Shown here piece by piece: positions 12,996 through 18,695 of a stretch of 64,000 bases of DNA. The stretch comes from Moesziomyces globuligerus (taxonomy: Eukaryota > Basidiomycota > Ustilaginomycetes > Ustilaginales > Ustilaginaceae), in NCBI GenBank assembly GCA_030849465.1, contig JARVLF010000013.1:930001-994000 (forward strand). Direction: 5' to 3'. The notes beneath the pieces are model-generated. The model saw only the letters and a program-made list of their open reading frames with translations, ran no database searches and was not told where the DNA came from. Within the stretch, counting starts at the first letter, position 1. Every line of letters starts with the position of its first letter. Position numbers and translations under genes: made by a program.

Positions 12996-15900
12996 CTAGA
13001 TGGCGTCTTCGAGGACGAGACGTGGGACGACTTGCATGGCCATGAGCTCCTGGAGCATGAGCTTTGTGCCGTAGGGGATGGTGAGTTGGACGACGTGCTT
13101 GCTGCTCGAGCAGTAAGGGCAGAATCCGTTGTAGCCCATCAGACCACAGCGCTGGCAGGCATGGACAGTAAACGCATCGGAACTGATCATCAGACGCTCG
13201 AGAAGCAGCTGCGTAGCACCGTATCCGATCAGACAATCGCGCTCCATCTCTCCCAGTCGAAGACCACCATCGCGCGAACGTCCCTCGGTAGGCTGACGCG
13301 TAAGCACGGCACGAGGTCCACGCGCACGCGCGTGCATCTTGTCCTGCACCATGTGCTTCAGACGCTGGTAGTAGATCGGTCCAAAGTACACGTAGCACTC
13401 CAGAGGCTGACCCGTGATGCCCGAAGTCAGCGTCTCCTTGCCTCCGTAGTTGTACCCATTCTCCACCAACAGCCGCGACATGTCCTCGACCTTGGACCCG
13501 CCGAACGCAGTACCGTACTGCAGCGTACCCGTGATGACACCCGCCTTGCCCGACAGCAGCTCGATCATCTTTCCGACCGTCATGCGTGACGGGAAACCGT
13601 GCGGGTTCATGATGATATCCGGGTTGATCCCGCGATCGCTGAACGGCATGTCCTCCTGCGGCACGATCAATCCGCACACACCCTTCTGACCGTGACGGGA
13701 GGAGAACTTGTCGCCCAGCTCGGGTCGACGGGTCTGACGGATGAGCGCCTTGATGAGCGTCTGATCCGAGTCCGTGTCCGTGATGAGCACCTGATCGACG
13801 TAACCATACACCGGCGGCTTGTACGACAGCGGGGCCGACTTGTACGCCACGCTCGCCGCGGCGTTGGACGCGCCAATCATGATCGCTGCCGACGAGTTGT
13901 CGTTCGCATTCACGGGCGTCTGCTTGTTGACGTACACGTCGCCCTGTTCCACGCGCTCGCCGACGCCCGCAATACCGTCCGCCTCGAGAATGTCGTATCG
14001 CTTCTGACGCTTGCCCGTCGTCTCGTCCACCGGCGCATCTGCCAGTCGATCGTGCGTGCCGTTCGGGTACTTGCGGATCACCGTCGACGACTTTTTCATC
14101 GTCTGACATCGTCCAAAGCCGCGGTCGAGCGATGCCTTGTTGAGCAGCAGCGCATCCTCGATATCGTAGCCCGAGAATGACATCACGGCCACCATGGCGT
14201 TCTGTCCCGCGGGCAGCTTGTCGTAGCCGATCAACTCGATCGTTCGTGTCTTGACCATCGGCTCCTGCGGGTAGACCATCAGATACAGCAGCGTATCGAT
14301 GCGTAGCAGCTGATTGTAGGCGATGGCTCCCTGTGCTTGCTTTCCCATGGCGCAGTTGCCCGTGAAGTAGGGGCGACTATTAATGGCGCGGACCGTGCGG
14401 TCTTCCTGATTCCACTCCATAGCTCGTCTGGCCAGGAAGTTGCTGTTGGGCAACGTCAGGCAATAAACGTAGCCATCGTGGCGAGGATTATCGTACAGCA
14501 CTGGCTGGGGCAGCCCCAGCCAGTGCTCGAGCTCGGCGTAGGCCCACGACACCCTCCAGCAGATGCTGGTTGCGCGTGTGATGCCCGTGTTGTCGCCCTT
14601 CCGATGATGAAGGGCTAGCGCTGTGTGGCCCCCGGCCATCTGGGCGAGGAGCAGCAGATCCTCGGCCATCGGCCTCGAGCTCGTAAAGGCGTTCAGAGAT
14701 CGCGTCTGTGCAAGGGGCGGGTTGGAGCAGTCGACGCGTGCCACCGCTGCCGGGTCGAGCTCGTCCCTGCCGCCGCGTCCACGCACCCCAGTGCCGCTCC
14801 ACGAGTCCTCGAGGTATTGCCAAGCGCCGTCCGCCGCAGAATGGCCCTCGAGGATGGCGCGGGCTGACACCGCGTCCAGATCGCCAATCCACGGGCCATA
14901 CCACCGCCGCAGGTACATCCACTTGCCAATCGTTTTGGCCTCGCTTGGCGTGGGCATGGGCACGTCCAGAGGCGTGCCCTCTATGCGGCGATGGTGCGTC
15001 GCATCGTACGATTGCACCTGCGCATCGTCCAGCGGATTGTACCGCTGGGGCCCGCGCATCATCGGCACAAAGAAGTCGCGAAGGCGCTGCGACTTAATTA
15101 TAAACACGAACATGGGGTCCGTCACCGTCTTGCGCGCCTTCTGCGGCTTGTTCGGGCTGACGACACGCTTGCGGATCGCCGTGCCCTCGCCGCGGCTGCT
15201 AAGGCGGCTGTAGCGCATGGCGTCGGCAGGGCTGTGCGCGTGGCTCGCAGTTGCCTGCGGCGGGGCAGGCGTCTCGGCAAGGGGACGACGGAGGGCATGG
15301 CCGATGGCAGCAGGCGCGACGGCAGTGGCGGCAGGCGTGGACGCAGGAGCGGCGGCGGCGTGGGTGGTTGGGGCGGGTGCAACGGCCGCGCGGGCGGTTT
15401 CAAATGCTGTCTGGGCGGTTAGGGCGGCATGGGCAGGTGGAGCGAGAGGAGCGACGGCGGCGGGCGGAGGGATCGCGGAGGCTGCGGAGGCTGCGGAGGC
15501 GTCCACGGAGGCTCCAGCGGAAGCGGCAGCAGAAGAGCGGGCGGCGACAGAGGCGGCCCACTGGACCGGATCAATGTACTCGATCTCGTCCGAATCGTGG
15601 TCCTCGCCGCCGGCCACAACGTCGCCGGGCGCAGCCTCGCTAGCGCTGGCGCCAGCGGTAGGCGCCACGTTCTCTTCGTTGCCGTCAAGATCGCCGCGGC
15701 CCTCGCCATCGTCCCACCTGAGCTCGCCAAGCTCCTCCTCGGCCTCCTCCTTCGCCTCTGAGGGCGACGCCGATCGCAACGGAGGCGTCAGGCTGTCTTC
15801 GTCGTCGTCATCATCGTCGATGACGATGTCATCATCATCGACGATGAACGACGACTCGCCAGGGCCTGGCGCTTGGATCCTCGGCTCGTGCGAGCGCTCC

Positions 15901-18695
15901 GCATACGAGAACCACGGCAGCGCGGCAGACAGACGGTCCAGCAAACCGCGAACATACCGGACCGCGTTGGGCTTAGCTTCCGACTGGAAGATGCGCACCC
16001 AGCCGCCGTACCGCTCCGTCTCGCGGTCGTTTGACACGCCGCCGTCGCCCATCACGAAGCCGACAAAGCGGCACCAGTCGATGCGGTTCTGCTCGACGGC
16101 CAGGAACTCGGCCGGCAGGAACGGGCAGCCCGGCCACAGGTACGGCTCGTTGGCGTTCGTGCCCACCGCCGGCACACGGTGGTTCTTGTGCGTCGTGCTG
16201 CCGTGGCGCCGCTCCCACTGGCCCTTGTTGACGCCGCGGACGCGGGAGGGCTCCAGGCCGATGTTGTGCGCCACGTCCTTCGTGATGTGCACGCGCAGCT
16301 CGCCGCGGGCGTCCCGAGTGTCCGCGTACCACCGGTGGTCCGGCGTACAGATCGCGTCCATGCTGTCGCTGTACAGCCGCATCATCTTCTTGCCGTCGAA
16401 CTTCTTGCTAAACGCCGCAGTCGGCTTCTGCCACGTCTGCACAAGCGTCTCCGTGTCCAGCGTCATCACCTCGTCCTCCGTCGTCACCAGCGCAATCCTC
16501 TTCCAGCCAAGCTTCGTCAAGACGTCGTGGTCTTGCGATAGGCACTGGTACGTCAGTCTGGGCGATTGGTTGTGATGAGGGTAGGGGATGAGGCCAGCGA
16601 CGGCGCCGAGAATGGTGAAGGGTTCGATCTCCAAGTGGGTGGTGTAGTCGAGTTTGATGTCGCGCTCGTACAGCGCGATGTTGGAGTCATTTTCCTCGTT
16701 GACGTCGAGGTACTCTAACAGTCCGTTTTGCAAAAAATCGTCGAATCGACGGACACCGGCTTTGAGTTGGTTGATGTGATCCTCCTTGACGCGGGGTTGG
16801 CCGGTGATGGGATCGACGATGATGAGTGGACGACAGATGCGACCGCCGTCCGAGGCGATGTAGACGGTCTGGTGGTGGTTGTTGGTGTAGATCGAGACGA
16901 ACTCAGAGATGCGGCCGGCGCGGCGGAGGCGTCGGAATTGCATCACGAAGCGCTGCGGAAAGCGGGTCAGGCCCAGCACGTTGCCGTTGAGGTATACGAC
17001 GTACGAGTCGGGACGGTACAGCTCAGCACCTGTGAGCAGGTGAATGTCCTCCACGCCGAGAGTGAAGGCGATGCGTGCGATGGGCTCCTCCTCGACATCG
17101 GTGGTGATGTGGGTGGTGAGGGCGAGGTTCTTGACGAGACCACAGGCTTCACCCTCGGGCGTGTCCGAGGGACACAGCATACCCCACTGCGAGTTCTGCA
17201 GCGCACGCGGGCCAGACACCTTGCGGGTCTTCTCGAATTGCGAGCTGATGCGGGTCATCATACCGAGCGCTGCGATGTACGATAGACGGCTAAGGACGTG
17301 AGTGACACCGGCACGCTCCATCTTGAAACGCTTCAGACTCCAGTTTCCCGTGGAAATGGCGCGGACGAAGCCGGAGGTGATGTAGTCGCCGTTGAAGTGG
17401 AACTGGTTGAAGGCGTCGAACTCGACAGTACGGTTGGGCTTTTTGAGGATCTTGTCGATGTTGAGCTTCAAGTCCGAGTTGAACTTTTTGAAGAGATCCT
17501 CGAAGAGGAGGGCGAGGAGTTGGCCGGCGAGCTCGAGCCTCTTGTTACCGACGTAGTCGCGGTCGTCAACCTTCTTCTCGTCCTGCATGGCCATGAGTAC
17601 CCTGCGCACCATGGAGGCGATGTAGATGGCCTTGGGGCGGAAGTTGAGACGTTCTACGGGCACGTGGGCCATGATGACGGTGGCGAGCACATCGAGGGCC
17701 TCTTCAGCAAGCGGTCGTCGCATCGAGAGTGGCTTGCGGGAAGCCTTTGCGCGCGCGCCGATGAAGTCGAGCGCCTGCTTGCGAGTGTAGATACCAAGAC
17801 GGGCGGCATCTTCGAGATTGATGGCGAAGAGCTCCTTGAAACTGTCATCGTGACCAGCAACGAGCTGGAGAATCTCACGATCTGCCTGGATGCCCATGGC
17901 CTTGAAAGCGACGGCGATCGGGATGTCCTCGTGGAGCGAGTTGTGCTTGAGGTAGATCTTGCCGTGCTTGGTGAGGACGTAGGACTTGGACTTGCGCTCG
18001 TGGGTGGACGAGGTGACCGATGCTGAAACGTTGCCCTTCTTGGTGTCGGCCTCGACGATGATTCGATTCTTGCTAAGCTGCTCTTGAACGAGGATGACCT
18101 TCTCGGTACCCTTGACGACGAAGTATCCTCCTGGGTCGAGGGGGCACTCGCTCATCTTGGCGAGCTCCTTTTCCGACTTGTTGGCCAACACACACTTGTT
18201 GCTGCGAAGCATGACCGGGATGCGGCCGATGGCGACGTTCTTGCGGCGGATGATTTTGGTGCCCCTCGTGTACTCGATGTTGACAAAGATGTGGGCGGAG
18301 TAGGTGATGTCGCGCAGACGGCACTCGTGCGGGGTGATGGGCCGCTGCAGAGCATCGCCATCGTACCTCCGTGGCTCTCCGACGGTGATGTCGGTGTACT
18401 TGAGGTAGAACTTCGGGTCGATGTCGGAGGTGATCTTCTCGTTTGCCTTGATGATGTTTTTGAGATCATGGTCGACAAAGTAGTTGTACGAGTCGATGTG
18501 CTGCTTGACGAGACCTTTCACCTGGAGAAAAGCAGGAACGAGCTGCCATTTATCCTCGACGGTCTTGATAGGGTCCATCAGACCTTTTCCCTTGTAGTTG
18601 GCAGCCTTGAGGGCGGCGATGGGGTCGTCGGAGGCGGCAGAGGGGAGATGGCCCGTGGCCTGGGCCATCTCTGCGAGGCTGGAGGGAAGCGCCAT
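12996..18695 (-). CDS. RPC2: RNA polymerase III second-largest subunit (RPC2/Ret1) with an in-frame intein
   Basis: Single 1899-codon frame. Removing residues 718-1447 (the intein) leaves an extein of 1169 aa, close to the usual RPC2 length of about 1150. Pol III identity follows from [59 protein letters not shown] and [13 protein letters not shown]. The C-terminal zinc ribbon uses C1847/C1850/C1859/C1862 (intein-containing numbering). The protein forms, with RPC1, the catalytic cleft of Pol III, which makes tRNAs, 5S and U6 RNA in the nucleus. The ATG at 18695 begins [12 protein letters not shown], a short acidic leader before the conserved [19 protein letters not shown]. The gene is divergent from SIT4. 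Without protein splicing this essential enzyme would carry a 730-residue insert next to its catalytic region, so splicing is presumably required. Confidence 0.95.
   Translation of the reverse strand: [1899 protein letters not shown]
14497..14527. repeat. 31-bp near-perfect palindrome inside the intein
   Basis: Two 15-base arms, AGCACTGGCTGGGGC at 14497-14511 and its exact reverse complement at 14513-14527, flank a single A at 14512. It lies in coding sequence for intein residues 673-683 ([11 protein letters not shown]), between blocks H and F. It can form a very stable hairpin in DNA or RNA. Confidence 0.9.
15135..15884 (-). other. Low-complexity insertion in the intein endonuclease domain
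   Basis: Encodes intein residues about 221-470, between block C and the second LAGLIDADG half. The first part is Asp/Glu-rich, with runs of four and six Asp from GAT/GAC codons (15780-15850). The second part is Ala/Pro/Thr-rich, and the end is basic ([16 protein letters not shown]). It has no predicted fold and probably forms a disordered loop. The boundaries are approximate. Confidence 0.75.

Follow-up and report, generated by a model that had tools for sequence, protein, structure and literature searches.

The question raised by the 64,000-nucleotide stretch of the Moesziomyces globuligerus genome analyzed here (contig JARVLF010000013.1, positions 930,001 to 994,000 of the forward strand; the window) is what interrupts its gene for RPC2, the second-largest subunit of RNA polymerase III. 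RPC2 is encoded on the minus strand (12996-18695) in a single frame of 1899 codons with zero internal stops, in which an insert of exactly 730 codons (RPC2 residues 718-1447; 14355-16544) separates ...SPRLTYQ from CAMGKQAQG.... This insert in a Ustilaginaceae RPC2 is almost certainly a full-length, in-frame intein with a two-motif LAGLIDADG homing endonuclease, and a member of a family that occupies the same site in several RNA polymerase genes. Its excision, ligation and endonuclease activities are predicted from the conservation of the pertinent residues. The features of the gene are as follows (block numbering follows PMC5222942 and PMC3196547).

12996-18695, minus strand: RPC2 gene, one open frame including the intein, 1899 codons
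16545-18695, minus strand: N-extein, RPC2 residues 1-717, ending in ...SPRLTYQ
14355-16544, minus strand: intein, 730 codons, Cys1 to Asn730
12996-14354, minus strand: C-extein, starting with CAMGKQAQG; Cys+1 codon at 14352-14354
16260-16544, minus strand: N-terminal part of the predicted splicing domain (HINT), intein residues about 1-95; codon of Cys1 at 16542-16544
16329-16346, minus strand: block B, TPDHRW, residues 67-72; His B:10 is residue 70, Trp B:12 residue 72
16035-16067, minus strand: first LAGLIDADG motif, FVGFVMGDGGV, with Asp167
15120-15839, minus strand: low-complexity segment rich in Ala, Pro and Asp, residues 236-475, of low confidence in the structure model
14826-14855, minus strand: second LAGLIDADG motif, ILEGHSAADG, with Asp572
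14433-14468, minus strand: block F, VYCLTLPNSNFL, residues 693-704; Cys F:4 is residue 695
14355-14366, minus strand: block G, FTGN, residues 727-730; Thr G:5 is residue 728, Gly G:6 replaces His, Asn G:7 is the last residue

Identity of the insert

Seven Rpb2 domain families match the RPC2 product, on both sides of the insert. The insert starts with Cys, ends with FTGN and is followed by Cys+1 of the extein, so that, together with H70 of the TPDH motif (67-70), the catalytic residues C1, H70, N730 and C+1 are all present, as are both acidic residues of the endonuclease, D167 (FVGFVMGDGG) and D572 (ILEGHSAADG). An earlier note, made from the DNA sequence alone, had placed an exact 730-codon insert between TYQ and CAMGKQ and had listed Cys1, a TxxH block B, the terminal Asn, Cys+1 and two LAGLIDADG motifs with both aspartates, all of which is borne out. 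That note named no strand, and the plus strand over the same interval contains stops. Its masses of about 205 kDa for the precursor and 128 kDa for the mature protein are slightly low, the computed values being 210.4 kDa for the precursor, 130.8 kDa for the joined exteins and 79.7 kDa for the intein. The content of guanine and cytosine at third codon positions is 0.81 in the insert and 0.79 in the exteins, and overall 0.67 versus 0.59. When the 18.5-Mb genome is searched with the insert, the copy in RPC2 is the only match.

The family alignment, a PDB profile search and a structure model all support similarity of the insert to HINT domains. The best PDB profile match of the intein family is the class 3 AceL NrdHF intein (6zgq), with a match that covers the N-terminal part only, and the same intein is the highest-scoring separate HINT domain in a fold comparison of the structure model. 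The model also contains the LAGLIDADG core helices, which are matched to I-DmoI.

Several observations weigh against this assignment. The predicted local distance difference test score of the model is below 50 for 354 of the 730 residues; scans of the window copy alone identify 0 intein or LAGLIDADG families in Pfam and none in NCBIfam, where the insert receives one chance match; a PDB phmmer search with the window copy reaches only E = 1; the penultimate residue is Gly rather than His; and the 240-residue low-complexity segment could impair the endonuclease within which it lies. The lack of HINT similarity in a profile search, named in the earlier note as evidence against an intein, is thus true of the single-sequence Pfam and NCBIfam scans, whereas the family-level tests recover the similarity. 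Searches of the genome with PF14890 and PF14528 yield no match, and given that both models also miss the known RPC2 copy, this result tells little about other inteins there.

Fifteen other proteins contain a related insert at the corresponding junction, which rules out an open frame arising by chance. A spliceosomal intron left open by coincidence can be dismissed almost completely: the length of the insert, a multiple of three, is what an in-frame retained intron could have, but GT-AG, GC-AG or AT-AC ends occur at none of the 4 boundary positions that give an identical joined frame, and the catalytic residues are conserved at the protein level across 16 sequences and three host genes. The intron reading is accordingly rejected, and the ends of a GT-AG intron, which the earlier note named as counter-evidence, are absent at all 4 boundaries.

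One junction in three RNA polymerases

The first protein search with the insert, in which the 8000 candidates sharing most words with it were scored, identifies 2 matches, both smut RPC2 proteins; a search with one smut protein, P0002, as the query returns 17 matches, P0002 itself included. The junction Y-(Q or H)/(C or S)-x-M-(G or A)-K-Q (here and below, the slash marks the insertion site) is occupied in 16 of the 18 sequences examined, namely the window protein and P0001-P0015, the exceptions being P0016 and P0017. Besides the two smut RPC2 alleles (P0001, P0002), the family includes 13 further same-site relatives in subunits of RNA polymerase I, II or III (Pol I, Pol II, Pol III). The polymerase class, assigned from the residues after the junction and in agreement with source names and Pfam domains where these are given, is RPA2 for P0005 and P0009-P0015, RPB2 for P0003 and P0008, and RPC2 for P0001, P0002, P0004, P0006, P0007 and the window protein. 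P0013 is named Parastagonospora nodorum, so that the junction is the site of the Pno RPA2 intein described in 2006 (PMC1635734).

The rows P0003-P0014 are denoted ascomycete-type. Those that are named come from ascomycete fungi, with the exception of one record labelled Quercus suber. That record, P0014, is an RPA2 with a fungal-type intein that groups with the other Pol I inteins, and is probably fungal contamination. Among the ascomycete-type rows, intein identity between Pol I and Pol III genes is 62-74% (21 pairs) at 29-31% extein identity; for Pol II and Pol III the values are 63-76% (6 pairs) and 36%, and for Pol I and Pol II 56-68% (14 pairs) and 27-30%. The three polymerases diverged long before the fungi arose, and 56-76% identity between inteins whose hosts are 27-36% identical therefore shows that the intein crossed between paralogous genes among the ascomycete-type members. 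Smut and ascomycete-type inteins are 37-46% identical.

According to Goodwin et al. (2006; PMC1635734), polymerase inteins occupy different sites and are generally not closely related, and occupation of a single site in all three polymerases is not described in the passages, titles and abstract openings examined. The 2023 paper on Salmacisia buchloeana (PMC10849329) does report that one genome has two polymerase inteins within the same primer interval.

In the intein tree, polymerase classes are clustered, not cleanly, with 2 changes for Pol I, 2 for Pol II and 3 for Pol III; 4 of the 13 inner branches are well supported and P0015 forms a long branch. With so few supported branches, the tree does not identify the donor of the smut inteins. 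A viral scan with the intein alignment yields 28 pattern matches, 1 of them a relative, and no link to eukaryotic viruses in that scan. The relative is a protein encoded on a phage-like contig (L021:2470-4539) and interrupted by an intein-like insert (CLDDSSEVLTRRGW...YVTGN/S) related to the present family. In P0016, a metagenome RPB2, the junction of the present family is uninterrupted, and two apparent inteins, read by eye, lie at other conserved sites, after GDKFC- and DKIH-type motifs.

Alleles and distribution in smuts

The window intein is not the first of its kind in smuts: the earlier note knew of none there, yet the Ustilago esculenta RPC2 entry (P0001) and P0002 hold alleles. Smut polymerase inteins have been published as well, with RNA polymerase inteins listed in Ustilaginomycotina by Green (2018) and Ustilaginales named in the legend of the RPB2-intein tree in the S. 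buchloeana paper (PMC10849329). Identity among the three smut copies is 55-60% for the inteins and 91-94% for the exteins. As annotated, P0001 misses intein residues about 38-85, block B included; this gene model is probably wrong because the annotated protein could hardly splice without block B.

A search with RPC2, restricted to proteins with a length of 0.55-1.75 times that of the query, gives 3298 matches, of which the best 120 were used. Apart from P0001 and P0002, 113 of the remaining 118 rows have the uninterrupted junction motif; P0032 also reads through the junction, with a variant residue upstream; and four rows are irregular there and, as annotated, too short for an intein (P0019 from Ustilago loliicola, P0028 from U. 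trichophora, P0031 from U. bromivora and P0033 from Moesziomyces antarcticus). These irregular models may hide inteins that were mis-called as introns. P0019 and P0028 have the same downstream flank as the window protein, AQGAIAYNQLLRIDT.

In an RPC2 tree built without the junction region and with the irregular rows counted as empty, the window protein groups with Moesziomyces (support 96/91) and P0002 with U. trichophora (93/95), and U. esculenta falls elsewhere, without a resolved placement. Intein carriage on this tree needs 3 changes, at least 2 of which are forced by well-supported branches. The C-terminal flank is closest for the pair of the window protein and U. esculenta (107/110), though their identity in the far N-terminal region, 93.7%, ranks 14th of 16. 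Such a flank match is what co-conversion would give. Three points limit that reading: the C-terminal flanks of U. loliicola and U. trichophora match almost as well, with one residue fewer (106/110); P0002 does not share the flank (90/110); and the pattern is that of a single pair.

A fast-evolving stretch around the junction

The junction is nearly frozen in RPC2 outside Ustilaginaceae. The reference for this comparison comprises 532 alignment columns with an invariance of 97% or more across 102 outgroup RPC2 rows; on the other side are 14 Ustilaginaceae rows, with P0019, P0028, P0031 and P0033 excluded on account of their gene models and P0032 placed in neither set. Of these columns, 37 are changed in Ustilaginaceae, and 22 of the 37 fall within -20 to +60 residues of the junction, a range of 64 columns with 4.5 changes expected (hypergeometric p 4e-13). 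In the window, this range corresponds to two parts of the exteins.

16545-16604, minus strand: upstream part (-20 codons) of the fast-evolving Ustilaginaceae extein stretch
14175-14354, minus strand: downstream part (+60 codons) of the same stretch

This and the following p-values are descriptive because related rows are not independent and the range was chosen post hoc. The 11 intein-free Ustilaginaceae rows have 20 of 30 changed columns near the junction (p 3e-13) and the 3 intein carriers 11 of 22 (p 8e-6); leaving out 7 residues on each side of the junction gives 17 of 32 (p 7e-11), and fully invariant columns only, 8 of 11 (p 2e-6). Row by row, p ranges from 3e-6 to 0.2, the weakest row being the window protein (2/64 changed, 0.8 expected, p 0.2), followed by U. 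esculenta (4/64, p 0.06). Among 22 overlapping non-smut clades of the same alignment that serve as controls, with smut rows in the reference and hence fewer near columns invariant, the lowest p is 0.027 (2/51 columns, 0.3 expected), and 19 of the 22 are below expectation near the junction. The numbers of parsimony changes per column near and far from the junction are 0.925 and 0.244 in Ustilaginaceae, a ratio of 3.8; in four other fungal groups with hand-picked rows the ratio is 0.39, 0.04, 0.23 and 0.44.

Past invasion and loss of the intein is one explanation of this stretch, and an unproven one. In its favor, the fast stretch brackets the junction and, of the clades compared, occurs in one only, the smut family that gains and loses the intein. 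The chances are about even that the stretch is unrelated to the intein, reflecting for instance adaptation of Pol III or escape from an inhibitor near the active center, and that the overlap is a coincidence. The densest 25-residue bin lies off the junction, 33-57 residues downstream (10/18), and in a 40-column scan, windows centered on the junction tie with windows about 45 residues downstream. The target of a LAGLIDADG endonuclease measures some 20-30 base pairs (bp); the densest bin, about 100-170 bp off, is thus too far away for such a target and would better fit a tract of repair or conversion. The window allele itself is only mildly changed, and three ascomycete-type RPC2 carriers show 2/64 changed columns near the site, against 6.7 expected. 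By our estimate, a random junction would fall inside the 77-residue hot stretch (-19 to +57, post hoc bounds) in about 1 case in 15 (77/1169). A general rule that presence of the intein entails a footprint is rejected on the same ascomycete-type carriers.

The paralogs in the same genome bear on both readings. Neither shows a significant excess of changes, which counts against an intein as the cause: in RPB2, 6/30 invariant columns are changed (4.3 expected; 4975/20000 shuffles as high) with 2-3 references and 16/58 (16.6 expected; 12569/20000 shuffles as high) with two references, and in RPA2, with 8 references, 5/33 (4.1 expected; 7677/20000 shuffles as high). Both are odd at the site itself. 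RPA2 (L019, G000:C16:938500-943000, minus strand) contains no intein and reads YQ/TQMMKQ, with Thr for Cys+1 and MMKQ for MGKQ; the homologous site is YQ/CQMGKQ in the three solved Pol I subunits aligned and in the ascomycete-type rows. RPB2 (L018, G000:C19:517800-522200, minus strand) is broken exactly at the homologous site, before which the frame is open for 802 codons and after which it is open for 445; a 3-nt exon between introns of 107 and 71 bp apparently accounts for the break. These oddities at homologous sites of one genome count for an intein as the cause of the footprint. There is also a precedent in haloarchaeal mcm, where host alleles resist intein invasion and a flanking residue is co-converted (PMC10643990).

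State of the endonuclease

The low-complexity segment (15120-15839), which lies inside the endonuclease, is longer in the window copy than in 15 relatives and holds short tandem repeats with periods of 9-12 bases. This expansion may have weakened the endonuclease. It is conceivable, with a likelihood not far below even, that the endonuclease is degenerate, that homing is lost and that the intein is kept only because precise loss is impossible. Compatible with this are the expansion and the divergence of the smut inteins (53-59% identity in the three-row alignment) relative to their exteins; in addition, the endonuclease of the allelic P. nodorum intein is termed degenerate by Goodwin et al. 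(PMC1635734), and P0013 has Asn in place of the second LAGLIDADG Asp. By contrast, both Asp residues are kept in the window copy and in both smut alleles, the modelled core helices match I-DmoI, and the intein is patchily present in Ustilaginaceae, with at least 2 changes required on well-supported branches.

Splicing chemistry

Two features define class 3 inteins, namely the triplet of Trp B:12, Cys F:4 and Thr G:5 and the lack of an N-terminal nucleophile (PMC3196547, PMC7891396). The window intein contains the triplet (W72, C695, T728), but Cys, Ser or Thr should be missing from position 1 and Cys1 is present in 16/16 sequences. Since Cys1 is invariant, the intein is not filed as class 3 and is only considered as possibly class-3-like in its working; conversely, because the triplet is also present, the class 1 (Cys1) mechanism is not to be assumed.

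Tentatively, and with somewhat better prospects of being wrong than right, Cys695 of block F might attack the N-terminal junction first, with Cys1 a relic or an alternative, which would make this a mixed-motif intein. The triplet is invariant in the family (Trp B:12 in 15/15 with one gap, Cys F:4 in 16/16, Thr G:5 in 16/16). In block B, the position at which class 1 inteins typically have Thr varies (5 Thr, 9 Asn and 1 Asp among 15). The AceL NrdHF intein, the best PDB match by profile and the highest-scoring separate HINT domain by fold, is of class 3, and the published signature of that class is WCT, without a conserved N3:7 residue (PMC7891396, PMC3196547). Nevertheless, the invariance of Cys1 suggests that it is needed, the published definition includes the missing nucleophile, and the profile match to AceL NrdHF is restricted to the N-terminal part. 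Furthermore, Cys at F:4 is also known from class 1 inteins, a polyphyletic set (PMC3196547), and as of 2016 Cys+1 was known in one class 3 intein only (PMC5222942).

Proposed mechanism and implications

Under the intein assignment, RPC2 would be translated as a 210-kDa precursor from which the HINT domain (residues about 1-95 and 681-730) would excise itself, joining TYQ to CAMGKQ to give the 131-kDa subunit. Self-excision is expected because the catalytic residues are conserved and the host is essential, so that excision is needed for a working Pol III. Nested in the HINT fold, the endonuclease would cleave the junction of alleles that lack the intein, and repair of the break would copy the intein in. 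One family sits at the homologous junction of RPA2, RPB2 and RPC2, and its ascomycete-type members have moved between the paralogous genes.

A more sweeping scenario is speculative and, taken as a whole, less likely than not. In it, one selfish element hops among Pol I, II and III at one homologous site of their shared catalytic core; in Ustilaginaceae, a near-immutable stretch of Pol III would have been rewritten by recurring rounds of invasion, co-conversion and loss, or by selection for alleles that resist cutting, leaving a footprint that marks past inteins in species now without one; and splicing in a eukaryotic nucleus might be of a mixed class 1/class 3 type. If the fast stretch is indeed a footprint of the intein, past invasions would be detectable from host sequence alone, and caution would be due with RPB2-type phylogenetic markers. 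An intein in an essential polymerase offers a natural experiment on how a selfish element can persist when unsuccessful splicing is lethal, and a one-site family in Pol I, II and III is a system for asking how an endonuclease crosses between paralogs, a move usually thought to be rare. What the locus adds is a family that crosses between polymerases and an unexplained stretch of rapid change around the junction in smut Pol III.

Comparison with known systems

U. esculenta (P0001) and P0002 have allelic RPC2 inteins at the same site; these are shorter, 565 and 527 amino acids, with a much shorter low-complexity segment. The interval between the reverse primers bRPB2-7R and bRPB2-7.1R probably contains the junction of the window intein. 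In Salmacisia buchloeana, a smut of the Tilletiales, the inteins SbuRPB2i and SbuRPB2-likei lie between these primers, the distance from bRPB2-7R to block A being typically 6 residues and that from bRPB2-7.1R to block G typically 1 residue (PMC10849329); as described there, they differ from the window intein in length (397 and 423 amino acids) and in host (RPB2 and RPB2-like).

The Pol III intein of Dictyostelium discoideum, Ddi RPC2, resembles the window intein in occupying the same subunit and in the low-complexity runs of its endonuclease part, but it is inserted in the fork domain and ends in His-Asn, whereas the Pno RPA2 site is in the hybrid-binding domain (Goodwin et al. 2006). The window intein, being located at the Pno RPA2 junction, is not an allele of Ddi RPC2.

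With regard to fold, the AceL NrdHF intein (6zgq) shares the HINT fold, Cys F:4 and Thr G:5 with the window intein; unlike it, AceL NrdHF is split, carries Met at B:12 and originates from a metagenome contig of phage-like character. I-DmoI and PI-SceI, which belong to other hosts, have the LAGLIDADG fold predicted by the model. Another counterpart is the Pno RPA2 intein of P. nodorum Pol I (PMC1635734; P0013), which has the junction YQ/C-x-MGKQ, Cys1, the FTGN end with Gly-Asn (and thus the same penultimate Gly for His), LAGLIDADG motifs and Cys+1, and from which the window intein differs in its host, Pol III rather than Pol I, in its length, 730 versus 455 amino acids, and in its second LAGLIDADG Asp, which is Asn in the Pno intein.
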